This document shows positions 18-18,387 of a stretch of 25,687 nucleotides of DNA, in pieces. Where the stretch lies: assembly GCA_022925895.1 (NCBI GenBank), contig JAKSYS010000787.1:1-25687 (forward strand), read 5' to 3'. A program made the translations under genes and the position numbers. The stretch comes from Fragilaria crotonensis (taxonomy: Eukaryota; Bacillariophyta; Fragilariophyceae; Fragilariales; Fragilariaceae). Within the stretch, counting starts at the first letter, position 1; every line of letters starts with the position of its first letter. The notes under the pieces were generated by a model that did not search any database, was not told the DNA's origin, and saw only the letters and a program-made list of their open reading frames with translations.

Positions 18-3000
18 ACCAAGAAACCTGGCGCAGCACCCAGTACAAAATGTACGTGTAGCCAATAAAAATGTTAGTGATGACGTAATCAAACGAGGAT
101 ATTCTCGTGTTGGAAGCAAGGCGTTTCACATATGAGATTGCATGCCGCTCAACACAACAGTTGCACTCCTATCTATCAACCCAACCCTGACAAGTGCCTT
201 CTTAATACAGTTTAGAATCAATCTGACGAAATTGGGTTGATAGTCAAGATGGCTGACCAAGGCATTTATACAATTTTGTGAACGCTGTTATGTTGATTCG
301 CGCCGATCCTTTGTACGGACCTCGAATGTCAAACTGCTGGCTCCCAGCGGCGACATGGGTAGAAGCACTTCGAAGAACGGGACATATTGATGCTGCAATC
401 GTCATTGACGTTCGGAAGTTTAATACGGCAATGTCCAAGGCTACAACATTTGGATCTGTCATGTCGAGATTCGATGGGTCAAACCAGAGCGGAGTCTTCC
501 GAGTCAATTACAATCATCAACACTTCTACTATATAACAAATGAAACGAGACAGGTAAGCTATCCAAATCCGCTGAATAAGGCCTGGAAGGAAAGAGTGCT
601 GGAAACGGCATCAAATGCACTTGTCATTCCATCGACAAGGGCAAGACCTGGTGCTGGTACTCTCCTCGTAAATCATGTCGACACAACTGAATCCACCAAT
701 GGGAATGACGGTGCTGAAGCGATAGAAGAACAGCCATCACCACAGAAACGCCCAAGATTAGAGCAGAGGGAGGAGGGCACTGCACTTATATCATATTGGC
801 CTGATAGCCCTGAAGCACGTCAGCTCTTTCGTCCAAGAAGGACGACGACGACGAGAGCATCGACAGCAGCTGCTGTTACTGACAACGACGCCGACGTGGC
901 GACGCTATGCATCAATGAAACTGCACAAGAGGCAGTGAGGCGAAGAATTAGACTGCTTCAATCTGTGCATGACAGTGAGGACGGCTGGAGAAACATTTTA
1001 ATAGGCAGGGACGAGGATAACTTCTGCAGCAAGGTTGAGATTTTTGAGATTCGGCAGCGGGCAACCTTTCTTTGTTGCGCGTACCAGATAGCCTTGACAG
1101 ATATGAACGAGAGAACTTGGCATGATTGTTGCAGACAGGCTTGCAAGTTTCTGAATAGCCTCGGACTCCGCCAAGCAACATTCTTCAAGACCGTCGCAAA
1201 TTGGAACAAGTTGTTCCGGCAATTTGATGGTTTTCCACACCCCAACCCGTATGTCCAATGTGGAAAGCGTCCACTCCCACGGTTGCTTGAACTTTTTCCC
1301 GATGCCAAGGACCAGATTGTCTCCTTTGGCATCAAGAACTTAGCAACACTAACTATAGAGAGTGTTCACGATTTCCTTGTGACATCAGTCATTCCAAGGC
1401 TAGCAAAAAAACTGGCGGAGCGAAAATGGGGTGACTGCAAGTACTACTGACACTACATGCGATGCTGCTGGCGATGAACTTCCTGATGACAATACCACCA
1501 CACCAATCCATTCATTCTTGCATGCTCACAGACTGGAGTCCGTAGGTTTGACTACAACTTGGCGGTGGATGCGCTGTCTCGGTTTTAAGTATGATTTAAG
1601 AAAAAAAGAGCTTCTATGTTGACGGCCATGAACGTGATGATGTGGTTGCCAATCGGCGAACGTTCTGCAAACGTTATCTAACAGTACACGAGCCCTATTG
1701 TAAACGCTGGGTACAAGTATCGGTTGATAAAGCAAAGGCAATGAAAAATATTAATCTGGCATTTGGTTATTCGTATCATGACATAATCGGAAATGAGGAC
1801 AGGATTGAGTTCCACATTGACTATTGGAATCAAGCAACAAACATCGGCAGCACCGACCGTGAGGACACCGACCACAATATAACACCAACAAAAGCATTCG
1901 CGTTTCTTCGCAGGCACGCCCTTTGATGATAATTGGCCAAGACGAGTGTCTTCGCTCAATACTTGCTTGGAAGCAAGACATGGGTAGGGCCAAAAGGACA
2001 ACGCCCGTTACTCCCGAAGTCCGAAGGCGACGGCTATGCTTTCTGCCTTTGTTTCACGAGAGTTCGGCTTCGACGAGAGATGACAGCAGCCGAGTTAGCG
2101 AAGGTCAATGATGAAAGGCGAGGAACACACAAGACATACCTTGACACTCTGGCTGCCACCGAGATTTTGAAGACCACCCAAAACCGCTCTTAACTGAATC
2201 GCCATTTGTTAAGTATCTATATATGGAGCCAACAATGAAGGTTATTGGAACAGCTATCACATGAGCTTGCAATTCGAAGATGTGGTGGATTGTTTGCAGG
2301 TTTTATACTCGGAATACGATTTCGTATTCTTGTTCGATCACAGCCAGGGTCACGCACGGAAGCGATGCGGAGCGCTGAGTGCTTTTCATATGTCGCGAGC
2401 CTACGGAGGGGCACAGCCAACAATGAGAGACACAACGATTGAACAAGCAGAGGGTTATCTTGGTGTGCACTCACCAAAACTGAATGTTGGCGACACTCAG
2501 TCCATGGTTTTCCAACCACAAGATTCTGGCCCATGGTACCTCTCCCCTCAGCAAAGAGAAGCGCAAAGACATGATCAGGCAACAGGGAAGAGCAGGCGTG
2601 TTGAACGGTCAAAGAAACTCTTAATTAAAGCTCTGTCTGAAGCTGGAGTTGAGATGCCAGAACAACGGGGCTATACAAGGAAAGAGCTGCAAACGTTTGC
2701 AAGACGTCACGGGATTGACTTGTTCGAGGAGAAACAAGGAGTCATTCCAGGGTGGCAAGGAAAGCCTAAAGGTCTTCTGCAAGTCCTTTGGGAGAGGGGG
2801 TTGATTTCGGAGGGTTCATTAGCGAAGTATACATTGGATGGGCGCAAGGATGCAATATCGCAACAAGTTGACTTACAATACTCGCTTCGGCATCTCATGT
2901 CTGAGTGCATCGATTTCAAGAATGAGGAAACAGCCCTCCAACATTTGGGAACTCAACTTGGAGTCAGTGTTGAGCTGACGCCAAAGTTTCATGCAGAACT

Positions 3001-3552
3001 TGCCGGTGAAGGCGTTGAATATAGCTGGGCGCAGGCGAAGTCGTTCTACCGACGAGTTCCAGTGTCCCGAAAGCGAGGCGAAAACTTCAAAGAACTTGTA
3101 CGAGAATGCACATGCCCTGTGAATGTTCTGAGCAGAGTGAGAATAGAAAAATTTGCTGCAAGAGCACGTGCATACATTTGCACTTACCACTATCTTGATC
3201 AGAAACTTGAAGAAGCGAATTCTGCTGCTGCTGGTACTCACGCCACCATGCCAAGTCATATGAAACAAGAGCTTTTGTACAATGAGATTGAGAGGCTCAT
3301 GAAAGCCTTTAAAGGACACCGATGTGCCCTTGATTTTGACCGTGGCTTTGTCAATTCTCAGTTAAGGGAAGCAAATGAAGCAAGAAGAAGTCCTGATGAA
3401 GAAATGGAATGATGCGTTGCGAAGTATGATTCTTCTTCGTCGAGGAGTTTGACTTCAGAAAATCTTTCAGAATTTTACTGTGCGAATTTGTATGCTTAGT
3501 ATGAATTTTACGTAGGGGTACGCCAGGACGGTCGAGGATGAAACCTGCTGTA
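2..3552 (+). mobile_element. Tc1/mariner-like DNA transposon with decayed transposase
   Basis: The first 17 bases of the window (1-17) are the exact reverse complement of 3537-3553, so the two ends are perfect terminal inverted repeats. If the TA at 2-3 and the TA at 3551-3552 are the target duplication, the element is 4-3550 and starts CAGCAGG, which fits the TA target and CAG-start termini of the Tc1/mariner/IS630 group. The interior is a single + strand transposase relic with no other gene. The left flank is not in the window, so the outer boundary and target duplication cannot be confirmed, and the inverted repeat could extend further left. The superfamily is inferred from the TA flank and DDE-type motifs. 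Confidence 0.75.
290..3412 (+). pseudogene. DDE transposase relic, frame-broken
   Basis: This is one ancestral transposase reading frame now spread over three frames. The first segment (ATG at 290, to 1450) holds an N-terminal domain and a helical region with motifs such as NSLGLRQATFFKTVANWNK and FPHPNPYVQCGKRPLPRL. The second segment (about 1450-1620) ends at GFKYDLRKK. A frame change in a poly-A run near 1600 then leads to YVDGHERDDVV and CKRYL (from about 1610). Further breaks lie near 1930-1950 (between IIGQDE and VFAQYLLGSK), near 2035-2085 (two compensating shifts), and near 2230. The last segment (2261-3412) has FVFLFDHSQGHARKR, GWQGKPKGLLQVLWERG and AFKGHRCALDFDRGFV. The Asp of IIGQDE and of FDHSQGH are the likely first two catalytic acidic residues; the third is uncertain. 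At least five frame disruptions make it non-functional. The match to a DDE endonuclease family is from recalled motif style, not a search. Confidence 0.75.
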
Positions 3553-3657: not shown

Positions 3658-3825
3658 ACAGTACTCGAAGTACAGTACTAGGTACTTCAGTACTTAAGCC
3701 CTCCGGGAGTACAATGGTACTCGCAGTACTAGTACTTGTACCAGTACTGTACTTGTACTCAAGTAATCAAGTACTGGAGTACGATGTACTTGTACCCAAG
3801 TACTACGGTACGCAAGTACATTGCA
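3658..3825. repeat. GTACT-rich low-complexity cluster
   Basis: About 170 bases are built almost entirely from GTAC, AGTACT and TACTTGTAC words in mixed order. Because GTAC is its own reverse complement, the tract looks the same on both strands and could form many alternative hairpins. There is no fixed repeat period. Similar clusters recur at 4770-4865, 6605-6785, 9245-9330 and 19114-19185, so this is a dispersed repeat class of the genome. Confidence 0.8.
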
Positions 3826-4108
3826 CTCCGCATTCATACTACAGTAGTAGGCCTCGGCAGGTCACGTTAAAATGAACACCTTTTAAAACCTTTAACTTCA
3901 ACCCACACTTTCACTCTTACCATTAAGATAATATTCTACCTTTACCTGTAACTTTGAAGAAATGCACTACCTTGTTTATCTTCAAACCTTTTTAACATGC
4001 AAAAGTATGCTATATGGTAATAACCATTCAAGAGGGGTTGAATAGTTATCTCAGGGATAATTTACTGTGAACCATACTAATGTACAAAAGGAACATTGCC
4101 TAGTAAGT

Positions 4109-4157
4109 AATGTTATGGGAAGACTTTTCCAATTTAATGTTATGGGGAGACTTTTTT
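4109..4157 (+). repeat. 27-bp imperfect tandem duplication
   Basis: The word AATGTTATGGGAAGACTTTT at 4109 recurs 27 bases later at 4136 with one change. Only two copies are present. Confidence 0.75.
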
Positions 4158-4769
4158 CCATCTTATCACCAATCACGCCAGCTTCATATCTTTGTGCACT
4201 TTTGAACTTGAATCAAGTGCTGCAATACACGGTATCACTGTTGTACACCAATCTTTCTTCTCAAAGGGCAAAATTAAAGGTTAAAAGGATATTTCTACCT
4301 GCAAGTCATTCATATTGTTGTCTTTAACCTAACCTTTAAGTTAACATCTAGCAATTGCTCTCCTACCTTTAAATAAACAAGGTTTTTAGCTCAGCCTCCT
4401 CTTCTTGTTAAAGGGTAAAACACTAAACCTGCCAAGGCCTAACTCACACTCAAATCAACTTGGGTGGAGTACAAGTACAAGTACTCCAGAGGTGTCCAAA
4501 TAAAAAAACCAAAATCTAATTTAACATGCACGTTAAGTTAGAGGTGTGGTAGGAGCTATGCTGCCCATTAAATGCTTTCTCCAATGATGGTTAAATGCTG
4601 ACCCCACCTGCATGAGTAGAATGCAAACAAGATAAAAAATTAAATGGTGGACACAAAAAGCACAAGGTTTGCAATCTCAGGCAGATTTTATTTTGTTACA
4701 AATACTTGGAATACCATATATATTCATACAATATAACTAAGTATAGAGGTTTGGACGGCTACTTGGACT

Positions 4770-4865
4770 GCATTAGTACTGTAGATAAAACGTACTGGGT
4801 ACGGTTACCGGTACCGGTACTTGTACTACCATGACACATATGCGGCTGTACTCGTACAGTACCGG
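4770..4865. repeat. GTAC-rich low-complexity cluster
   Basis: The tract is a dense run of GTACT, GGTACC and GGTACGG words, including alternating ACCGGTACCGGTAC. It has the same composition as the cluster at 3658-3825. Confidence 0.6.
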
Positions 4866-5694
4866 AAGAGCTTTATGATTCGTCTCTGAGTTGGCCTGTC
4901 TCGTACTCGAGTAATTTCTTGTTCCCAATGCCCGTCTTGATGTCCGACTCATGACTGAAACCTGTCTGATCATGTTGTATAACTTTTTGTATAACTTTCA
5001 CGCTCACTATACAGTATCATGCACTTCGACTGTATCAATTATATTTATACTCTAGCTAGTAGGAGTATGTAGAATCTTCTCTTTAATAGAATCTGTAAGC
5101 TGCTAAATAAAAGGGGAATAACACCAATTAAGTAAGCCATTTTCAATAACATCAATTATCTCGTTATTTACCAAAGCCATTTTTGCTATTTCACGTTTTC
5201 ATATTTGTTATTACAAAAACACAAAATATCTTTTCCCCAAATTGCAATAACAGCACCCTTTCATTCATCGAATCTTGCAATAACACCCATTAATTCTAGC
5301 GTTGCCAGCGTGACAGAATTGCAATTATTACCTGCTCTGCCATTGCGTTTTCCTTTATCATTTCTGCATCAAAGCCAATGAAGCTCAGTAGTGATACATT
5401 GCTGTTTACAATGTTGTTGGCAAGTGTTAACGGAGAATGTGATTCAGTTGATGTGGTCATTTCTTGTTGTCTTGATGAATTTCTGATGTTCATCGTGATG
5501 AGTGCAATATCTTTCATGAAAAGATCCAAAATTCTACGTGGTCACATGTGTAGACATTGTAGGGCCAGATCCACATTTGTCCAAATTCACATGAGCAAAT
5601 GAGTGCATGATGCCAACTTCCACACCTCTGCGCTCTGTTGTATTCACTTTGTTGTCGTCCAAGATCAACGCTCATTCTGCTCACCAGCAGAACC

Positions 5695-6095
5695 ATGCCC
5701 AAGATTCGTGCTTCTTCAAGGAAGAAGAAGGAGCAGCACTTTCCAGGAGACCCAAGATTTGGGATTTCTCTGTCTTGGGAAGGCAGGAGTGGCACTGCAA
5801 GCTCAGAAGGAGCAATTGCAACTGCTGAATGAAACTGCAAGAAAGGACGTCGCGAACAAGAAGAGTGAGGCAGGCACAGTTGAAGACATTGGAAAGAGCA
5901 CAGACAGCGCTAGCGAAACATGAAATCAATGCAGGGTCGCTTACCGAGAAGGATTGGGGCGATGTAGTTGGCTGGGTGCTACCTGAGGCAAAAGTGCCCT
6001 ATCTCTTGAAAGATCTCAAGAAGCGTGATCATATTCTCGCAAAACGCGCAACTTTGCCCAATAAGCAATTGGACCACTTACATTCCTTGAATTGA
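5695..6095 (+). pseudogene. Frame-broken small basic protein, unknown function
   Basis: Three overlapping frames appear to be pieces of one protein. A basic N-terminus starts with MPKIRASSRKKKEQHFPGD (ATG at 5695). A helical Gln-rich piece with LQAQKEQLQLLNETARKD follows in the next frame (about 5770-5860). A C-terminal piece (about 5845-6095) reads LERAQTALAKHEINAGSL then TEKDWGDVVGWVLPEAK and VPYLLKDLKKRDHILAKRA. The pieces read as a continuous charged, coiled-coil-prone protein of about 130 aa only if two single-base shifts are allowed. I do not recognise the family. It may be a relic of a multicopy transposon-associated gene. An alternative is a true short ORF at 5829-6095 (88 aa, own ATG). 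Confidence 0.4.
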
Positions 6096-7036
6096 GGTAG
6101 TCCCTGTTGTCCCACCAACACAAGTATACTAGTAATATATATCAACAAAACAATTAAGCATCAGTGGACTAGATTGTAAGCTTTACAATCGCCCTCAAAT
6201 GAGAATTATGCGCATCCGGGATTTCAATTACGAAGTCCCACAAAATTTCTGATGCAAGCAATAATGGGAAATTGAAGATCTAAAAAATCGAATATTGCAT
6301 TTCTAACAATGCAGCCTCATAGCGGACTCGCTCATTATTAACATCTTAGTGAACTGTAAGAGTGAAAGATCAACGGATTGATGAAAGGGATTCGATTTGC
6401 TCCATTAGTGACTCACCTGTCCGGATACTAGCTATGTTAAGGAAAATCTTGGGTGAAAACATCGAATAATCATATCTCCATCATTCAACATCACACATAT
6501 CATACACTCTGGATAGCTAGAAAGCATGCCCGACATCATCTACATTATATAACTTGGGGAAAAAGGGTAAGAAGTGGGCCGTTAAAGCGGTTTTTTCTTA
6601 ATCCAGGTACAAGTACTTGTATTCTACTACCTGGTACGATAGCTAATCGGATCCGGTTGAAGAGTTGAAGTACAAATACCAGGTACTAGCTAGTAGTAGT
6701 ACAAGTACCAGGGTACAAGTTCGTGTATTGGTCCAAGGCATAAAGTCCTACTCTACTAGTAGTACAAGTACGGTACTAGTACTCAGAGGTCAGAATTGTA
6801 TGGGAACCAAGAATCGATAAACGAACAGAAACCTAAAAAAAATCAGTTGACTTTCTCTCAGATTTGAATTCATTTTTAATCACTCTCGTGCACCCAGCAC
6901 ATGGGAGCAACTGTGTTCTGTGCTCGTAATACGGAGTCCCGAGTACAGAATTCCGTGCAACAGCCAACAGAAGCGACCGAGTCGCGCTTTCACAAATTCC
7001 TCGTTGCAGACCCCCAGAATCGCCGTTCATGGGACA
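6096..7036. other. Non-coding spacer with GTAC cluster
   Basis: No supported gene lies here. The stretch contains a short perfect palindrome (GATTGTAA at 6172-6179 with TTACAATC at 6183-6190) and a GTAC-rich cluster (6605-6785). The last 250 bases are the likely promoter and 5' leader of the SGNH hydrolase gene, but no clear TATA box is visible. Confidence 0.55.
6605..6785. repeat. GTACT-rich low-complexity cluster
   Basis: The tract holds repeated GTACAAGTACTTGTA-like and CTAGTAGTAGTACAAGTAC words with interruptions. It lies about 250 bp upstream of the SGNH gene start and matches the composition of the other GTAC clusters. Confidence 0.7.
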
Positions 7037-9690: not shown

Positions 9691-10880
9691 ATGAAACTTC
9701 AAGCCCTTATAACCCTGCTGCTTCTATGCACAAGACTCAGCATATCAGCAGACTTATTCGAATCTGAATCCGAGCCCGGTGAGATGAAAAACTATTCAAG
9801 TCGCTTTCTCGGAGGGCGAAAACGAAGGAAACCATCAGGACCGAAGGCATCAACGAGGATAAGGACCAGTAGCCGAATTGTAGGGGGAAGTCCTGCCGGG
9901 GCTGAAACGTACCCCTTCATGGTTGCGTTGTATAGCGCTGACGACCCATCTACGTCGCTTCCAGTTTGCGGTGAGCACCGACTTACTTGAAACTCGTATT
10001 CATCTTTGAACTTCAATTTGAGTTCTGACTTCATCTCATTCCCTGACGAACCACAACTTCATGTGCATTTCCTCTAGGTGGAAGTTTAATCACCCCGAAT
10101 GTTGTATTGACCGCAGCGCATTGCATTATGGAAATTAAAACAGCGCAGATTGGAAGATATGACATTGTGCTTGACGAGCCGGGGGTACAAACGTACGTGG
10201 CCTCGGAACGTCGCATGCACCCAACGTTTGACCGCCGCACATATGATTTTGACTACGCCCTACTGAAATTGGATCGACCGCATCCCAATCCATATATGGT
10301 ATCCTTACGAACAACGCCAGAAATTCCTAATTTGTTGACGATTATTGGATGGGGTGCGACATCGGATGGTGGCTCGCAGTCAACTAAACTACTGGCAGCC
10401 GACGTGCGTCGATTCAACACAACCAAATGCCGAAGGAATTACAATCCGGATCCTATAACAAAAAATATGTTTTGTGCAGAAAAAAAGGGAGTTGATGCCT
10501 GTCAAGGTGATTCGGGTGGACCCATAGTTATCAACGGATCGAACATTCAAGTCGGAATAACCTCCTGGGGGAGCGGATGTGCAAACGCTACCTATCCAGG
10601 TGTCTATGCGCGCGTTGACAAAGGCTATTCATGGATTGAAAAAACAGTCTGCTCCGATCTCAGTCCAGGTGACTGCGAAAAAGATGGCAGACTTCCCCTG
10701 GTCAGTAACGAAGGGTCTGCCCAGATGCGAACATGCGAAGAGCAGGATACGTTCATAGGACTTGGAAAGAAGCGGAGTGTACGGAATTGTGCCTGGGTTA
10801 AGGAAAATGCAATCCAACGCTGCCTTTGGTACGAAGATTTCTGTCCTTTGACGTGCGGTGTAGACCGATGCAAGAATTAG
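9691..10880 (+). CDS. Secreted trypsin-like serine protease with Cys-rich tail
   Basis: Two exons, 9691-9970 and 10078-10880, give 360 aa. The intron 9971-10077 (107 nt) runs from GTGAGC to CTCTAG and rebuilds VCGGSLITPNVVLTAAHC. Residues 1-20 form a signal peptide (LITLLLLCTRLSISA). A basic propeptide ends at Arg62 before IVGG, the usual activation cleavage. The triad is His108 (LTAAHC), Asp152 (DFDYALLKL) and Ser239 (ACQGDSGGP). Asp233, six residues before the Ser, predicts trypsin-like Lys/Arg preference. SWGSGCA and PGVYARV complete the S1 family fold. After the protease, residues 313-358 hold six cysteines, the last five spaced x10, x6, x3, x4, probably a disulfide-rich accessory domain resembling ShK-like modules. 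The start is the first ATG in frame; an upstream GTG is not needed. A paralogue lies at 16153-17553. Likely secreted or endomembrane; the natural substrate is unknown. Confidence 0.9.
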
Positions 10881-11457
10881 AGTGTAAGGTCCTTGGTTGA
10901 TATCCACCCCTCCTTGTCGCATGATCGTTCATCGTATGGATGTCCTCATCAGCAACTTTATACAGAAAGTACTATGTATGGGGAAGCTTGGTTGGCCGAG
11001 CAACCTTCTTGAGAAGAACCATAGATGCTCCTGGCTTCAAAATCCTTTACTTCCCGATCAGTGCAACATAGTACCTACTCGTAACAGCAGCAGGGGACTA
11101 AAAGACGCTCTTTCAAGATGAGTTTCAGCCAGGCGATGCTAACTCGCTACTATGTTTATCTTGAGTCTTGCACTCGTGTAGGTGTTGCGTAGTTTTTCAT
11201 CGTGATCGTGTGATCATAGGGATATAGATGTGATATGTGATGGTTACGTCAATTTGGCACGACCGAGCAGCTACAGTAGAGTAACTGGAGTATTCTACTT
11301 GTACAACAGGTGCAGGACTGATTTACATTAGAACCACATTTTAATTAGACTTTGCTCATACTAACTCGGAAAATACCTGTGGTGTTGGTGGCGCTTGTCG
11401 CACTCTCCATAGCTTATTTTATATATAGAGTGTTTGCTCTCTGAGTATTGAGTATGA
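10881..11457. other. Intergenic spacer between protease and Harbinger element
   Basis: No gene is seen. This 577-bp stretch plus 15955-16152 is the original DNA between the two proteases before the Harbinger insertion. A few short GTAC and AGTACT words occur, but no structured repeat. Confidence 0.5.
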
Positions 11458-11499
11458 GGCCGATGCTTACGGGATTTGGGAATTACAAAACAAACCACA
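11458..11499 (+). repeat. Left terminal inverted repeat of Harbinger element
   Basis: This 42-bp end is inverted at 15910-15951 with seven mismatches. The outer 15 bases and the inner CAAAACAAACCACA are identical. It is preceded by the TGA target copy. Confidence 0.88.
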
Positions 11500-11747
11500 G
11501 TCCGAAATTCCTCTGACGCTTTGTAGAATGACATCGCTTACAAACAATTCGATAACTTCCGATTTACAAAACAAACGGTGAATAATTCCATCGTATAGTG
11601 TATACGATCACGTATACCATAAAACATGAAAACCATGTATAGAAGCTCCCTCCACTGAACGTCAACAAGCGTCCGACAACAGTATGATAAGAACACAACT
11701 CCAGTCACTAATGCATAGACTCCATTTATCACTGCATAGACGTCTCC

Positions 11748-13551
11748 ATGGGTGTTGCAAATTCGAAGCTCTTCGTCAATCGGATGCTCAGAAGTGGGTT
11801 GTATGACGCAAACGACGATGAGGTGTGTTCAGATGCCGTGAGCTTTGATGCCCCCGTCAACTGCTTTGAAGAATCATTATTTAATAAACATGTCAACGAC
11901 GACGACGACGACGACAACGATACAAATCTGCTGTTGAGTTTGCTTGCGCATCACCATTCGAATGTTCGCAACGTCAAGAAGCAGAAAGGCTTTCAACAAC
12001 AAAAGCTGGCAGCGCTCAAAACAAGACGCCACAAAGGACCAGCACTACCTCGGCCTGTCAAAAAGATACGTGTACCCAGACTATTGTTCTTCAATGATCC
12101 AACAACGGGTTTGCGTCGCCCTGTAACACCGAAGTTAAGCCTTTGGTGGTTGTTGTATCTTCAAGACCCACAGCCACAATGCAAAAACTGGTCTAAGTCG
12201 TTCCGACAAAGGTTTCGCTTGCCTTACAATGAATTCTGCAAACTTTTGGTGATGATGAGGACAGCTCAATGATACCTACTTTCAACGGTGGAAGACGGAA
12301 GAGACGGAGGATGGATGCCATTCCGTTCGTCAGAAAGGAAGATCTCACCTATGGAATTGTTGCTTTTAGGGAGCTTGCGCTATCTTGGCAGAGGGTGGAC
12401 ATTTGACGACCTTGCAGAATCAACGTTCGTGAGCCGTGATGTTCATCGCTGTTTCTTCCACAAGTTCTGTGCTTGGGGTGCGAAGGTTTTGTATCCCATG
12501 TATGTTCGTCTTCCAACAACGCTACATGACTTGAGAGCTTGCGAACAAGAGTACAGCAATGCTGGGTTCCCCGGGTGCATTGGCAGTACGGATGCAACGC
12601 ACATACCCCTTGAAAAAGTTTCATACAATCTCAGACAGGGGCATCTTGGATACAAGATGCCTACTACTCAGGACGTACAATCTTACTGTGAATCATCGTC
12701 GGCAGATTTTGCACTCAACAACTGGCCACCCGGGAAGGTGGAACGACAAGACTTTGGTTCGTTTCGATTCATTTATGGCAGACTTGCGCAACGGTGCATT
12801 CAATGATACCATGTCATTTGAATTGAAGACCAATACTGGTGGAGAAGCGACAACCAGAATCATTAAAGGTGCTTATGTGATTGTTGACAACGGATATTTA
12901 AAGTGGTCAACAACCGTGCCACCCATCAAGCACTCAGGTAAGCGTTCTGAGATTCGGTTTTCGCAATGGCTGGAGTCATTGCGGAAGGATGTTGAGTGTA
13001 CCTTTGGAATTTTAAAGGGGCGATGGAGAGTACTGAAAAGTGGTATTCGCGTGCACAACACTGAAGCCGCTGACAACATTTGGCTTACATGTTGTGCTCT
13101 GCACAATTTACTTTTGGATGTTGACGGTCTGAGCGTTGGCTGGGATAGTGGTGTGCCTTCTTCTTGGGAAGGCGAAATTGGTAATTTTGAGCCCGATGCA
13201 ATTCCCCAGGCAATTCGAAGACTGATTTCGCCTGATGTCATCCGAACATACGATCAAAGTAGCGTAGGCTACAGAACTGGAACAAGTACTGTTGATGGCG
13301 TCAGGAACGACGGCAACAATGGCGACGACGGACGACAGTGCAATCAAATGATTTTTACGGAAGGTGAAGAGGTTCCAGTGAATCAGTTGTCCTTGCATCA
13401 ATTTCGGGCAATGCTCATTGAACATTTCAATATTCGTTTTCACGAAAACAGAATTACGTGGCCAAAACGACTTGCATCAAAGCACCTCCTCGGCACGTTC
13501 CAAATTAAATTGCTATTAGATCAACTTCTGACAATATTATTGAAAACGTAG
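11748..13551 (+). pseudogene. Harbinger DDE transposase, stop and frameshift
   Basis: The ATG at 11748 starts a protein with an acidic Asp run (about residues 50-56) and a basic segment, followed by LPYNEFCKLLVMM. An in-frame TGA at 12270-12272 interrupts it. The same frame then gives LLLLGSLRYLGRGWTFDDLAE and GCIGSTDATHIPLEK (first catalytic Asp) up to LGYKMPTT near 12670. There one extra base moves the frame and the protein continues with TYNLTVNHRRQI, HPGRWNDKTLVRFD, AYVIVDNGY (second catalytic Asp) and VECTFGILKGRWRVL (catalytic Glu), ending at TAG 13549. These are the hallmarks of the DDE_Tnp_4 Harbinger nuclease family. All three catalytic acids survive, and only two lesions are evident, so the copy is young or carries sequencing errors. 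Near the TGA the frame is uncertain; a compensated shift is also possible. Confidence 0.85.
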
Positions 13552-13847
13552 AGTACTATACTAGTAGGAGAGAAAATAGTGTATCTATAGATTGATCAGA
13601 CGTTGCTGGATTCACCATCCGATTCATAGTTTCCGTCACGAATAGAGTTCTGATTCGTAACACTTTCCTTGTCAAAACACTCCCACACCACCAAACCATT
13701 TCCAGACGACGGTGGCTGTAACAGCATACGTCACACACATATCTTTGCAGCGCCGACACTTGTGTGATGTCGGCGTAATTGAGCATTCAAAGCACACAAG
13801 GACGGCAGAGGATGCAGCAATTGACAACATTGCTTCAGCTGGCGACT

Positions 13848-15560
13848 TCATTGGAGATTCAAATATAACAACTCCACCAGACGGAAGGATAGATGGCTGT
13901 TTGACGGAGTCAGATGGATGGCTGTGGTTGGCTCTACTAACCGTAGATCTCCTATAGACGATTGCTGACGAATCCTGTCATCCTCCAATGAGGCACCAGC
14001 ACGGATGGCTGCTCGTTCAGATATTACATTCAACTGACGATTTGCCTCTTTGTTTTGAAGGAAACTCAAATACTCTTCGCGTTCAAGTAATTTTGCCTCA
14101 AGCGCCTCCATCTTTTCCAATAAGCTGTCAGCAAGTTGAGAACTTGTTCCAGTAGTTGCATGGTAGTAACGTCTCGAAACGCTTTCCACTTGACCACGCA
14201 ATGACGTAATCTGTCCTCGCACACGAAGACAAGACAGCATAGAATGCTTCTGTCGTGCCTTCTCAAGCGACTCGGAATCTAAATAATCCAATGCCTGCTT
14301 GAGGATTCCGTCATCCTCCACAGTGCCACTGACAAATGAAGTCACTGCTGTGTTGTCATCATCAGCACCACCCCACGAAGTAATTGCATCATCCTCATTG
14401 TCATCCTTTGGATTTCCCCGTTTCTGTTTCTTTCCTCGCCGGCTGTCAATAGGAATGGAAGACACTGCTGCCGCTTCCTTCATGGCCTTACGTGAACCGG
14501 TTTTCCGGCCGTAACTGGTCCCAACCTTTGATTCCGTAAATGCCATGGATTTCATTTCTGGATCGTTCGTGATGGTAATATGCCCCCAGAGACACCACGC
14601 TATGAAACCTTTGAAGAACGTCCCATCCGGCACGTCCGCCTCATCGGTTTCTGCACACACGAACACGGTATCAGAAAGATTTACAACGGATGAAGTCAAA
14701 TCATCGTTTTCAAATTCATTGCTGCCGTCCTCTGCGGTCGCGCCAACCACCAATTCTGGGCCAACATCAGTCACATCCTTGTTCAGCAATTCGTCATCAG
14801 CAGCTAGCACACCATCTGGTGAGTCCGACATCATGGCCTTCTCGGCCATGTCCTTCTGAAGCAGGGGACTTGCAACAATAATACCCGCCTTCTCGGCAGC
14901 GACTGCCTTTTTCATAGCTGTGATGCACCATTGAATATAATCCTCCCAATTCGTTCCGGAAGGATAGTTTCCGTCCTTGTACGGTGAGTTTGATGCTGTA
15001 ACAATGGCTGTCATTTTTTTACATGAGCGAAGTACATCCTTTGCTGCCCGTAGCATTGTCCTTCCGGAAATATGCGAGACAGTAGATCCCTTTGTCTTGC
15101 CAACAAGAAGTGACCTCTCGATTGAGCCCTTACCGACATAAATGTTGACGTCTAATCCACGTTGGTGCAATACGGGGATTAGTGTCAGTAGCATTGCTGC
15201 ATTCGGGGATACGCCTGGTTGAACGTCGACCGCTGACACTGAGTACAAACCATGAAAGCGATCAAGTCCATGGAGAAATTGGTCAACACAGCACACAATA
15301 TCGGGGTCATCATCACTGTCTCCCAAATACAGCTCGGCAATTTTCTTCATTTGTTGAACTTCTGATAGGGTTGAGACACCACAAAGGAGTGATGGCGAAT
15401 CAAAACATGCATATGCAATTGATGCCTGGAACTCCGTGAGAAGTTCCCTTTTTACATTCGTCGTCATCGCCGTCTTTGCCGATGTCTTTGTCTTTTTCTT
15501 CGCTGATACGCTTTTTCTGGTATCTTTGTTAGACACCACTGATTCGCCGGAAACCATCAT
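13848..15560 (-). CDS. Harbinger element second ORF, unknown function
   Basis: An intact 570-aa ORF on the opposite strand inside the Harbinger termini. The start is taken at the ATG pair at 15560/15557; a stop lies in frame a few codons upstream. The N-terminus is Lys/Thr-rich (KKKTKTSAKTAM). A conserved-looking core (about residues 55-250) contains LLCGVSTLSEVQQ, DVNIYVGKGSIERSLLVGK, VSHISGRTMLRAAKDVLR and TNWEDYIQWCITAMKKA. A second region has ADVPDGTFFKGFIAWCLWG, then a basic stretch SRRGKKQKRGNPK that may be a nuclear signal, and a C-terminal coiled coil around LLEKMEALEAKLLEREEYL. Harbinger elements usually encode a Myb/SANT DNA-binding partner of the transposase, but I cannot see a clear Myb tryptophan pattern here. 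It may be a divergent partner or a captured host gene. That it is intact while the transposase is broken is notable. Confidence 0.7.
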   Translation of the reverse strand: MMVSGESVVSNKDTRKSVSAKKKTKTSAKTAMTTNVKRELLTEFQASIAYACFDSPSLLCGVSTLSEVQQMKKIAELYLGDSDDDPDIVCCVDQFLHGLDRFHGLYSVSAVDVQPGVSPNAAMLLTLIPVLHQRGLDVNIYVGKGSIERSLLVGKTKGSTVSHISGRTMLRAAKDVLRSCKKMTAIVTASNSPYKDGNYPSGTNWEDYIQWCITAMKKAVAAEKAGIIVASPLLQKDMAEKAMMSDSPDGVLAADDELLNKDVTDVGPELVVGATAEDGSNEFENDDLTSSVVNLSDTVFVCAETDEADVPDGTFFKGFIAWCLWGHITITNDPEMKSMAFTESKVGTSYGRKTGSRKAMKEAAAVSSIPIDSRRGKKQKRGNPKDDNEDDAITSWGGADDDNTAVTSFVSGTVEDDGILKQALDYLDSESLEKARQKHSMLSCLRVRGQITSLRGQVESVSRRYYHATTGTSSQLADSLLEKMEALEAKLLEREEYLSFLQNKEANRQLNVISERAAIRAGASLEDDRIRQQSSIGDLRLVEPTTAIHLTPSNSHLSFRLVELLYLNLQ

Positions 15561-15593
15561 GGTCACCTACGCCTTGACGTATGTGCAGTGAGG

Positions 15594-15655
15594 ACTAGAC
15601 TCAACGTCTATGCAGTGCTGAGCAACTAGACTGGAGTCTATGCAGTGACTGGAGT
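15594..15655 (+). repeat. Imperfect 31-bp tandem repeat
   Basis: ACTAGACTCAACGTCTATGC at 15594 recurs from 15625 in diverged form (ACTAGACTGGAGTCTATGCA). It lies just upstream of the second Harbinger ORF, inside the element, in its probable promoter. Confidence 0.55.
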
Positions 15656-15807
15656 GTCTTCTTCTTCTTCTTGGAGTCTGCGATAAACTGGGATTTTTCT
15701 CCTGAATTCGTGGTGTTGATGATTCGATCTCGCGGTGTAATCGAATAATTATTTCATGGTTTGGAACATTTCGATCTACAAACGGGGCGTCACCGTTTGA
15801 AGAATAT

Positions 15808-15838
15808 TTCTCCGTTTGTAGAATCTACAAACGGAGAA
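15808..15838. repeat. Perfect 15-bp-arm palindrome, subterminal
   Basis: The arms 15808-15822 and 15824-15838 are exact inverted copies around one central A. Each contains TCTACAAACGG or its complement. Further copies of that word stand at 15775-15785 and 15880-15890, making a subterminal repeat array at the right end of the Harbinger element, possibly transposase-binding sites. Confidence 0.75.
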
Positions 15839-15909
15839 GTTGGTTTGTAACTCTGAAAGTCATTGTAAGCATCGGGGATTCTACAAACGGCGACGAAAAT
15901 GTCGTAAGT

Positions 15910-15951
15910 TGTGGTTTGTTTTGCAGTCCCGAATGTCCGTAAGCATCGGCC
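15910..15951 (-). repeat. Right terminal inverted repeat of Harbinger element
   Basis: This is the inverted partner of 11458-11499, followed by the second TGA target copy at 15952-15954. A related partial copy, GTAAGCATCGG, occurs internally at 15865-15875. Confidence 0.88.
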
Positions 15952-16152
15952 TGACGCAATAATGTCATTTCAAAACCTTGCATCCTCCGTAATTGGTACT
16001 CCGTACAGAGTCCCATACATTACACGGGATTGGTCATTTTGATTTCCGACAGACCGATTTTCGACACCATTACGACCACGAATGATAATCGTCGAACAGT
16101 GTCTGAGCTGCATTGCTGATGCTCCAAGGCGATATCATTCTCAATTTGTAGG

Positions 16153-17553
16153 ATGGACCGAGCCTCAGAAATACCTCCCAATACTCTGATGATAGATGGC
16201 GAGGTTCGTTCCAGGCCAAGCAATTACCTTTATGGCAATAATCGCTGGTGCAAGAAGAGCAAAGCCTGGACTCCTCTGTTGACCATGCTCTTGGTCATTT
16301 CCGTACTGCTCTTGTTCAGTGTGATTTCTTGTACACACAATGAGGAGAATAGATCATCTCGCAAGCTACGCGAAAGGCGCCACGGATCGTGGTCATCCCA
16401 ATCTTTGGCTCGCATCGTCGGTGGCACTACGGCGGGACAAGAGGAGTTCCCGTACATCGTGGCCCTCTATTTTGGATCAATGAATGGAAAGAAGCCTGTC
16501 TGTGGAGGTACATTGATTACACCCAATGTTGTGGTTACAGCTGCACACTGCGTGTACGCAGTAACATCTGTCGACATCAATCGATATGATGTCAACGTAG
16601 ATAAAGGTGTCACAAATTATCCGATATCATGGGAGAACAAGAGAGTCCATCCTGACTATGATTCAAGTACAAACAACAATGATATTGCCCTGATACATCT
16701 TCCAAGTCGTCATCCGGGTGCAAAGACAGCAACTCTTTTTCGGACCGGTACTGTCCCAACAACTCTAACTGCAATCGGATGGGGTCGACTGCAAGAAGGC
16801 GGGGAACAACCGAATCAACTCATGAAAGTGGATGTGACGTATCAACAGGATTGCGCGTCCATGTATGGAGCCAAGTACAATCCACAGACCATGATTTGCG
16901 CATCGGATGATGGAAAGGACTCGTGTCAGGGGGACTCTGGGGGGCCTTTGGTGGCCCAAGGGTCGTCAGTGCTTGTGGGTATCACATCTTGGGGATTTGC
17001 ATGTGCGTCACGCGCATTTCCCGGTGTTTACACGAGAGTCTCAACGTTTGACACCTGGATCGACGACGTAGTTTGTAACGACTTGAGTCCAGACGACTGT
17101 GAAGATGGACGCATTTTAAGTGAATTTCCCGATCCTAAGACTGTGAGCCCATCTAGCGATCCTTCTTTGAATCCTTCGCCATATCCAACCCAACGCCCTT
17201 CTCCATCACCCTCTGTGGCGGCTTCGGAGTTACCGAGTGGTCGTCCTTCATTCAAGCTAGGGCCATCCATAGAGCCATCGTTGATGATATCGGGTGATGG
17301 TGTTCCCGTCGTGTCGGAACCAAGGAAGCCCACAGCCAAGCCCACCGTCGAACTAGTCATTCTCACTCAGTCGATGATATCTGATTCTTGCAATGATCAA
17401 CAATTCTTTATTACGGGTGACGTTGTGCGTGATTGTACGTGGGTCAAGCAACGGAAGAGTCGAAGGTGCCTAAATTACATGGTCTTTTGCCCTGAGACCT
17501 GTCAGAAGCCCGAATGTTCTCAATCTACCACTAAAGAAGACTTAGTTCACTAA
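16153..17553 (+). CDS. Membrane-anchored trypsin-like protease with Cys-rich tail
   Basis: A single uninterrupted 466-aa ORF from ATG 16153. A 39-residue basic N-terminus precedes one membrane segment (about 40-60, LLTMLLVISVLLLFSVIS), suggesting a type II anchor. A basic propeptide ends at Arg87 before IVGG. The triad is His132 (VTAAHC), Asp177 (NNDIALIHL) and Ser262 (SCQGDSGGP). Asp256 is the S1 specificity residue of trypsin. SWGFACA has Ala where trypsins usually have Gly219. A Pro/Ser-rich linker (about 325-390, with SPSSDPSLNPSPYPTQRPSP) leads to a six-cysteine tail whose last five cysteines have the same spacing as in the 9691-10880 protease. Both the domain order and the sequence show these are paralogues. 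This copy lacks the intron. The Harbinger right end lies 201 bp upstream, so its promoter region may have been altered. Confidence 0.92.
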   Translation: MDRASEIPPNTLMIDGEVRSRPSNYLYGNNRWCKKSKAWTPLLTMLLVISVLLLFSVISCTHNEENRSSRKLRERRHGSWSSQSLARIVGGTTAGQEEFPYIVALYFGSMNGKKPVCGGTLITPNVVVTAAHCVYAVTSVDINRYDVNVDKGVTNYPISWENKRVHPDYDSSTNNNDIALIHLPSRHPGAKTATLFRTGTVPTTLTAIGWGRLQEGGEQPNQLMKVDVTYQQDCASMYGAKYNPQTMICASDDGKDSCQGDSGGPLVAQGSSVLVGITSWGFACASRAFPGVYTRVSTFDTWIDDVVCNDLSPDDCEDGRILSEFPDPKTVSPSSDPSLNPSPYPTQRPSPSPSVAASELPSGRPSFKLGPSIEPSLMISGDGVPVVSEPRKPTAKPTVELVILTQSMISDSCNDQQFFITGDVVRDCTWVKQRKSRRCLNYMVFCPETCQKPECSQSTTKEDLVH

Positions 17554-17586: not shown

Positions 17587-18387
17587 TTAGAGACCAGGTC
17601 CAGTGCGGAATGGGTTGATGCGGGTGAAGATGGCGTGGCCTCGTGCCGAATGCTGGAGCGCCCCACCAACGTGAAGCGGAACCAAGTACTTTCCATAGGT
17701 TCCAATTTGCTTGTGGAGCTTGAACGACTGCAAGATAGTGTTGTGAGTAACTTTGGAATAGGAAAGTAGCACCAAACAGATCAGATACATGGCCACCCGA
17801 CCGGCTGAACTCACATTCTTGGCAATCTCACCGTACGTTTTCTTTTGAGCATCGTCTGCCGCTACTGGACTCGAAAATGTTGTGTAGAAAAACGGCAAAC
17901 CCTTGCCTCCGTAGTATCCCATCGCAACACCAGTCGCGGGCATAATAATCATGAAAGCATACAAGCCATAATGAACGGCTTTGGACGCGATGGTTTCAAT
18001 AGCTGACGAGCCCTGCACTTCTTCAACTTTGTAGGCGACCCTGTTGTAAACTCGGTAGACAAGCCGAGGAGCGACGACGATTGCGGTCAAGAGACCCAAA
18101 GACTTATGAGTATACATCCAGTATCCCTTATCTTCCTTCGGCGCTTGCTGCCAAGATGGAATGACACAACTGTTAGATCAGTACAACGGCAGACACGTAC
18201 ACACGCACGCATAAACAAGTCTTGCTACTTGAATATGGTAGAAAGCAGCAGCAGTGTCGCATCACATTTGTATATTACTTACCTGAGCTTTCAAAACAGT
18301 CCCAACACATCCAATTAATGGGATGGCCACCATCCAATGGAAAGAGGCGGCAACTCTGGTGTAGGCTTGAGCTGCGTAGGGCAACAT
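17587..18387 (-). CDS. Cytochrome b561, CybB/YodB-like
   Basis: Two exons, 18283-18387 and 17587-18147, encode 221 aa. The intron 18148-18282 (135 nt) starts GTAAGT and ends GGCAG, in phase 0. The protein has four hydrophobic helices. His17 (SFHWM), His49 (YTHKSLGLL), His180 (KLHKQIGTYG) and His194 (LVPLHVGGALQH) fit the four haem ligands of the prokaryotic-type cytochrome b561 family (E. coli CybB), including the 13-residue spacing of the last pair. Such proteins bind two b haems and move electrons through a membrane from a quinol or similar donor. Eukaryotic copies are organellar in some algae, but no clear transit peptide is visible and the N-terminus is short. Its 3' end faces the protease gene with 33 bp between them. 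The start is the only ATG before the first ligand helix. Confidence 0.9.

Follow-up and report, generated by a model that had tools for sequence, protein, structure and literature searches.

We describe a Harbinger-like transposon from the diatom Fragilaria crotonensis, found in a 25,687-nucleotide stretch of DNA (assembly GCA_022925895.1, contig JAKSYS010000787.1, positions 1 to 25,687), hereafter the window. The element occupies 11458-15951 (4,494 bp) and contains a transposase gene and a second, convergent gene, whose product we call the partner; near-identical copies of a leader block precede the two start codons. With moderate confidence we favour the explanation that this is a once-autonomous, two-gene transposon of the PHIS superfamily whose native partner does the job of Harbinger ORF1 (open reading frame 1). 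That job is given to the partner because of its position and the leader that it shares with the transposase gene. A first-pass annotation of this DNA had delimited the element and suggested that its second gene was either a new transposition cofactor or a captured host gene. The description of the inverted ends, the matching duplications, the transposase relic and the intact second gene was borne out, while the leader block is new and goes beyond it.

Ends and genes of the element

The features of the element are listed by position, strand and source of evidence.

11455..11457, no strand, left target site duplication TGA (flanking letters)
11458..11499, + strand, left terminal inverted repeat (TIR), 42 bp, looser to 11543 (inverted-repeat search, alignment)
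11689..11743, + strand, left leader block, two TGCATAGAC copies (alignment)
11748..12272, + strand, transposase, first open part, from ATG at 11748 to in-frame TGA at 12270-12272 (ORF list)
12273..12670, + strand, transposase, second part in the same frame with the first Asp (GSTDATH), end approximate (frames, codon usage)
12671..13551, + strand, transposase, third part after the frame change, start approximate, with the second Asp and the Glu (DDE_Tnp_4 / Plant_tran match)
13848..15560, - strand, partner ORF, 570 codons, intact, convergent to the transposase (ORF list, codon usage; no accepted family match)
15604..15663, - strand, right leader block, two CACTGCATAGAC copies (alignment)
15776..15890, no single strand, four CTACAAACGG subterminal motifs at 15776+, 15812-, 15825+ and 15881+ (motif search)
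15910..15951, - strand, right TIR, 42 bp, looser to 15863 (inverted-repeat search, alignment)
15952..15954, no strand, right target site duplication TGA (flanking letters)

The inverted arms at 11457-11499 and 15910-15952 were the longest among 12 inverted pairs found in 11000-16400. Counted without gaps from 11458 and 15951, the TIRs are identical at 35/42 positions, the first 15 of them perfectly, and a looser gapped match reaches 11543 and 15863 (71 of 82 aligned columns identical, 11 gap columns). Alignment of the outer 400 bp of one end with that of the other gave a local score of 63, and in 1000 plain shuffles the score never exceeded 30. Exact occurrences of the first 14 bases of the TIR number two in the window, one per end, and allowing three mismatches added two more sites, one of them within the right end (four matches versus 1.37 expected). 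The letters TGA adjoin the outermost repeat bases exactly on both sides, with flanks A/TGA/GGCC... and ...GGCC/TGA/C. The target site duplication is TGA, a 3-bp duplication for which the odds of a chance match are 1 in 64.

The transposase is of the DDE type. Frame 12535-13548 matched Pfam DDE_Tnp_4 (E=8.5e-18, positions 32-158, unaltered frame) and Plant_tran (E=1.5e-14), and when the gene was read through its frame break, with an X at the join for the search only, the DDE_Tnp_4 match covered positions 2-158 of 158 (E=3.6e-20). All of the catalytic acidic residues are retained, namely the D in GSTDATH (codon 12591-12593), the D in VIVDNGY (12886-12888) and the E in DVEC (12994-12996), with a spacing of 36 codons from the second Asp to the Glu. 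The gene appears interrupted by the in-frame TGA at 12270-12272 and by a change of frame near 12676, at the start of the later frame's Pfam match; codon usage prefers the first frame over the 120 bases from 12640, but over the 120 bases from 12700 it prefers the second. As read, the gene looks broken by this stop and frame break, and because of this the copy, taken as it stands, does not look autonomous. The element can thus be called complete, as it had been, in respect of its ends, but not as an autonomous copy.

The partner ORF runs from an ATG at 15560 to a stop at 13848 through 570 codons without a break, whereas among 300 first-order random copies of the element no stop-free frame exceeded 245 codons. 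Its codon-usage score per codon was +0.110 in its own frame versus -0.231 and -0.219 in the other frames of the same strand, while the three frames of the opposite strand scored -0.243, -0.090 and -0.133. The training set was five ORFs from other parts of the window, three of them without a Pfam match, which score 0.105-0.175 on themselves. A frame length beyond that of the random copies and an in-frame codon bias within the training range indicate that the partner ORF is very probably a real coding gene. Its product has two basic stretches, near residues 21-25 and 375-381, and tryptophans at 205, 211, 322 and 325, followed by a basic GRKTGSRKAMKE stretch and then by long helices according to sequence and model. 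Intactness, in contrast, is weak evidence of selection, because with two apparent breaks in 1.8 kb of transposase gene an unbroken 1.7-kb gene would be expected about 15% of the time by our arithmetic; we therefore dropped an inference of selection on the partner made from its intactness.

The shared leader block and the role of the partner

A second inverted match lies inside the TIRs and precedes both start codons (left 11689-11743, right 15663-15604). The two copies of this leader block are identical at 49/51 aligned bases, with 13 gap columns, and over aligned bases are better matched than the TIRs (49/51 versus 35/42), but gapped. Their alignment scored 51. Plain shuffles (1000) reached no more than 31, first-order random pairs (2000) no more than 32, and 412 overlapping stretches of 300 bp, taken from the window beyond the element, no more than 25. 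The left copy stops 4 bp ahead of the transposase ATG (11748-11750) and the right copy 43 bp ahead of the partner ATG, and TGCATAGAC occurs twice in each copy, read toward the gene. The block is most plainly read as a putative promoter or leader that both genes have in common, or as a site for protein binding that serves the two. Because a near-identical leader precedes both, the partner is most likely native to the element, one of two genes arranged in mirror image, rather than a gene taken from the host.

The right end contains further repeated sequence. A perfect palindrome with 15-bp arms (15808-15838) takes in two of the four CTACAAACGG motifs, while at the left end there is just the shorter ACAAACGG, in one copy at 11571. 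The region 15776-15890 is a possible candidate for an asymmetric binding region.

Under the explanation that we favour, the element would formerly have been autonomous with two genes and would now apparently have lost the capacity to produce an intact transposase. That enzyme would have cut and pasted the element, giving rise to the 3-bp TGA duplication, and the leader block would have turned on the partner gene just as it did the transposase gene. The partner would bind repeated sites near the ends, with the TGCATAGAC pairs or the CTACAAACGG motifs as candidate sites, would perhaps pair through its helical C-terminal part, and would, inside the nucleus, carry the transposase to the element's ends. 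The two-ORF plan, the basic stretches and the helical C-terminal part may be taken in support of this scheme, as may the parallel with Ping/Pong and zebrafish Harbinger3. Both proteins are required in each of those systems, and the partner of Harbinger3 is an end-binding protein that interacts with the transposase, which needs it for nuclear localization (PMC2836001).

Several results weigh against this role for the partner. The leader block could be a promoter only, and is silent on what the partner protein does. Searches of Pfam, NCBIfam, PHROGs and PDB sequences detected no DNA-binding domain in the partner. With E allowed up to 10, the whole protein matched nothing in Pfam, and neither it, three sub-segments nor ten overlapping 100-residue windows gave a row for Myb, SANT, MADF, NAM-associated, SET, TET/JBP or YqaJ, negatives that are bounded by the HMMER filters, which discard most matches weaker than about E=0.1. 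PHROGs gave no match. Rows for DUF3764, Mrr_N, Nup49_C, Focal_AT, DUF4716, DUF6525 and DUF7880 (E 0.019-0.28) in Pfam, a single weak row in NCBIfam (E=0.037) and two rows in the PDB sequence search (E=1.5 and 1.8) were taken as chance, those of Pfam being under the cut-offs. An AlphaFold model of the partner from the single sequence had a mean predicted local distance difference test score (pLDDT) of 41.9, with 457/570 residues below 50, and residues 30-240 folded alone gave an all-helix model with a mean of 37.3 and 196/211 residues below 50, in which the helix-strand pattern of the N-terminal half of the whole-protein model was not reproduced. Residues 411-510 were modelled as helical (block means pLDDT 67-88) in an otherwise unreliable model. 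No fold is claimed, as the models are too poor to assign one.

No second copy of the element, which might have shown the partner to be conserved, was seen in the window or in the viral and prokaryotic collections. With the element masked, the best rows in the window were at E=0.094 for a transposase piece and 0.21 for the partner by tblastn, and 21 bases at E=0.097 by blastn, all of which were taken as chance. The collections scanned consist of viral contigs and bacterial/archaeal genomes, and absence of relatives there carries little weight. Among viral contigs, 0/19 pattern stretches were confirmed for the whole partner, 0/15 for its C-terminal 267 aa, and 0/2 and 0/3 for two transposase pieces, and two DNA patterns had 0 matches each; among bacterial/archaeal genomes, 0/155 were confirmed for the partner and 0/30 for a transposase piece. 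The 200 aa encoded in 14900-15500 gave 1/5 confirmed in viral contigs (L001, a probable phage contig with terminase- and portal-like ORFs), but this was rejected as a chance match spanning only 24 query residues. In the literature, no title or abstract opening among the matches listed describes such a partner.

Competing explanations and known Harbinger-like groups

The strongest competitor concerns the ancestry of the partner rather than its job, and so overlaps with the explanation that we favour: the partner may be an ordinary Myb/SANT ORF1 that has diverged beyond the reach of Pfam. We regard this as a serious if somewhat doubtful possibility. The order of parts, from the four tryptophans through the basic GRKTGSRKAMKE stretch to the long helices, resembles that of plant NAM-associated / Myb partners, while the lack of any Myb, SANT, MADF or NAM-associated row for the whole protein, its sub-segments or its windows speaks against it. 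The lack of a Myb/SANT pattern noted at first pass accordingly holds as far as Pfam can tell, and a distant homologue is possible. Myb-like partners published so far are very divergent themselves (PMC9179366).

Alternatively, the partner may be an accessory gene borne by the element, which replaced ORF1 or stands beside it and whose role is a different one, for example in anti-silencing or in modifying chromatin. Precedents are provided by the SET-domain HarbingerS of oomycetes and by TET/JBP genes in the fungal PHISTA, as outlined in PMC12730594. We nevertheless consider this improbable, as there was no SET, TET/JBP or other accepted enzyme match, and no other good ORF1 candidate within the element, where stop-to-stop frames other than transposase and partner extend to at most 126 codons (unspliced frames).

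Capture of a host gene by the transposon is less probable again. The host-like codon usage of the partner and its intactness beside a broken transposase could be read in this way. However, the partner begins shortly after one copy of the leader, and the other copy stands before the transposase gene, as expected for a gene of the element; the transposase parts are likewise host-like in codon usage (0.042-0.104); and intactness is weak evidence when a gene of this length would stay unbroken by chance about 15% of the time. The capture proposed in the first-pass annotation is thus disfavoured. Finally, an accidental open frame, to which the lack of relatives in the viral and prokaryotic collections might point, is a negligible prospect given the length and codon bias of the ORF.

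Judged on its sequence, the element belongs to the PHIS superfamily, having a DDE transposase alignable over the catalytic region and TIRs with a short duplication (0, 2 or 3 bp in the superfamily); the transposase, ends and 3-bp duplication agree with the Harbinger type first proposed. It is closest to NuwaII in anatomy and we leave its subgroup unplaced. The group descriptions that follow are those given in the cited papers. Strict PIF/Harbinger elements duplicate TWA, and most of their autonomous candidates encode a Myb/SANT partner (Han et al. 2015, PMC4482050). They share with the present element a DDE transposase, two ORFs, a TIR of <60 bp with G as its first base and a 3-bp duplication, and differ from it in that TGA, not TWA, is duplicated here (in one copy) and that the partner has no Myb/SANT match, a diverged domain being possible (PMC4482050). 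Because the TGA duplication falls outside TWA, the element should not be classed as strict PIF/Harbinger.

NuwaII has TNA duplications within C/TNA/G, mostly GG-starting TIRs of 13-46 bp, a mean length of ~4.7 kb and a Myb/SANT partner (PMC4482050). The present element is alike in its TNA duplication, GG start, TIR length, size and two ORFs, and unlike in having A/TGA/C versus C/TNA/G, a comparison of one copy with what is published as a preference, and in a partner without a Myb/SANT match, where again a diverged domain is possible (PMC4482050). For the second ORF of Pangu, PMC4482050 reports no known motif in its results, whereas its discussion puts Pangu among the Myb/SANT groups. Pangu / Harbinger2 occurs in one heterokont and two algae, among others, and resembles our element in its second ORF without a known motif, with the caveat that the source contradicts itself, and in an AG or GG start of the TIR; it differs in the ANT duplication of Pangu versus TGA here and in the mean Pangu length of ~3.5 kb (PMC4482050, PMC12730594). 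ISL2EU likewise has two ORFs, a second ORF that is not Myb and a GG start, but has an AT duplication and a YqaJ exonuclease partner (PMC4482050), neither of which was found here. PHISTA combines TET/JBP genes and a TA duplication with a third protein described without Myb/SANT, and HarbingerS has a SET domain (PMC12730594). Both are thus Harbinger relatives with extra proteins, free of Myb/SANT (PHISTA) or with other domains (HarbingerS), and differ from our element, in which no TA duplication, TET/JBP or SET was found (PMC12730594). The view that the partner is unlike the usual Harbinger partner therefore stands for the missing Myb/SANT match but not as a novelty, since these accounts already describe non-Myb partners for other PHIS groups (PMC4482050, PMC12730594). 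The element is of a known PHIS kind with one unexplained protein.

A diatom comparison may be offered by Harbinger4_TP, where we take TP to stand for Thalassiosira pseudonana. Harbinger4_TP has 3-bp duplications and belongs to the lineage that is sister to the TET-bearing families, a lineage positioned close to or within Nuwa on weak support (PMC12730594). Harbinger-like elements have been recorded in T. pseudonana (PMC2806351). A bolder proposal is that the partner founded a class of non-Myb cofactors that, under a leader in common with the transposase gene, replaced ORF1 as the subunit for end binding and nuclear import in a (probably algal) PHIS lineage using TGA (TNA) sites; we think this unlikely, although less so than an accessory role.

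Genomic setting and significance

Trypsin-type ORFs lie on both sides of the element on the + strand, at 10047-10880 (Pfam Trypsin, E=6.7e-44) and 16120-17553 (E=1.9e-51). They share 46% identity over 208 aligned columns and, on this similarity, are a diverged tandem pair with the transposon in between. Further along, an ORF at 17587-18177 on the - strand matches cytochrome b561 (Ni_hydr_CYTB, E=1.8e-10). Two + strand ORFs, at 257-1450 (397 aa) and 2213-3412 (399 aa), had no Pfam match at E<=0.01; the latter may resemble an algal mobile-element protein. The G+C content is low at 3751-5500 (0.348-0.390 in six overlapping 500-base windows) and 6001-6750 (0.378-0.392), and is 0.42-0.53 across most other parts of the window.

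Harbinger elements split transposition between two proteins, and second proteins outside the Myb type are poorly charted. Here, an element of defined extent, whose orphan partner is intact and whose leaders mirror each other, provides a concrete protein and concrete DNA sites. If the partner is a diverged Myb protein, the case would be an ordinary one. If instead it lacks a Myb fold yet binds the repeated sites and delivers the transposase, the partner role in these transposons would be replaceable.

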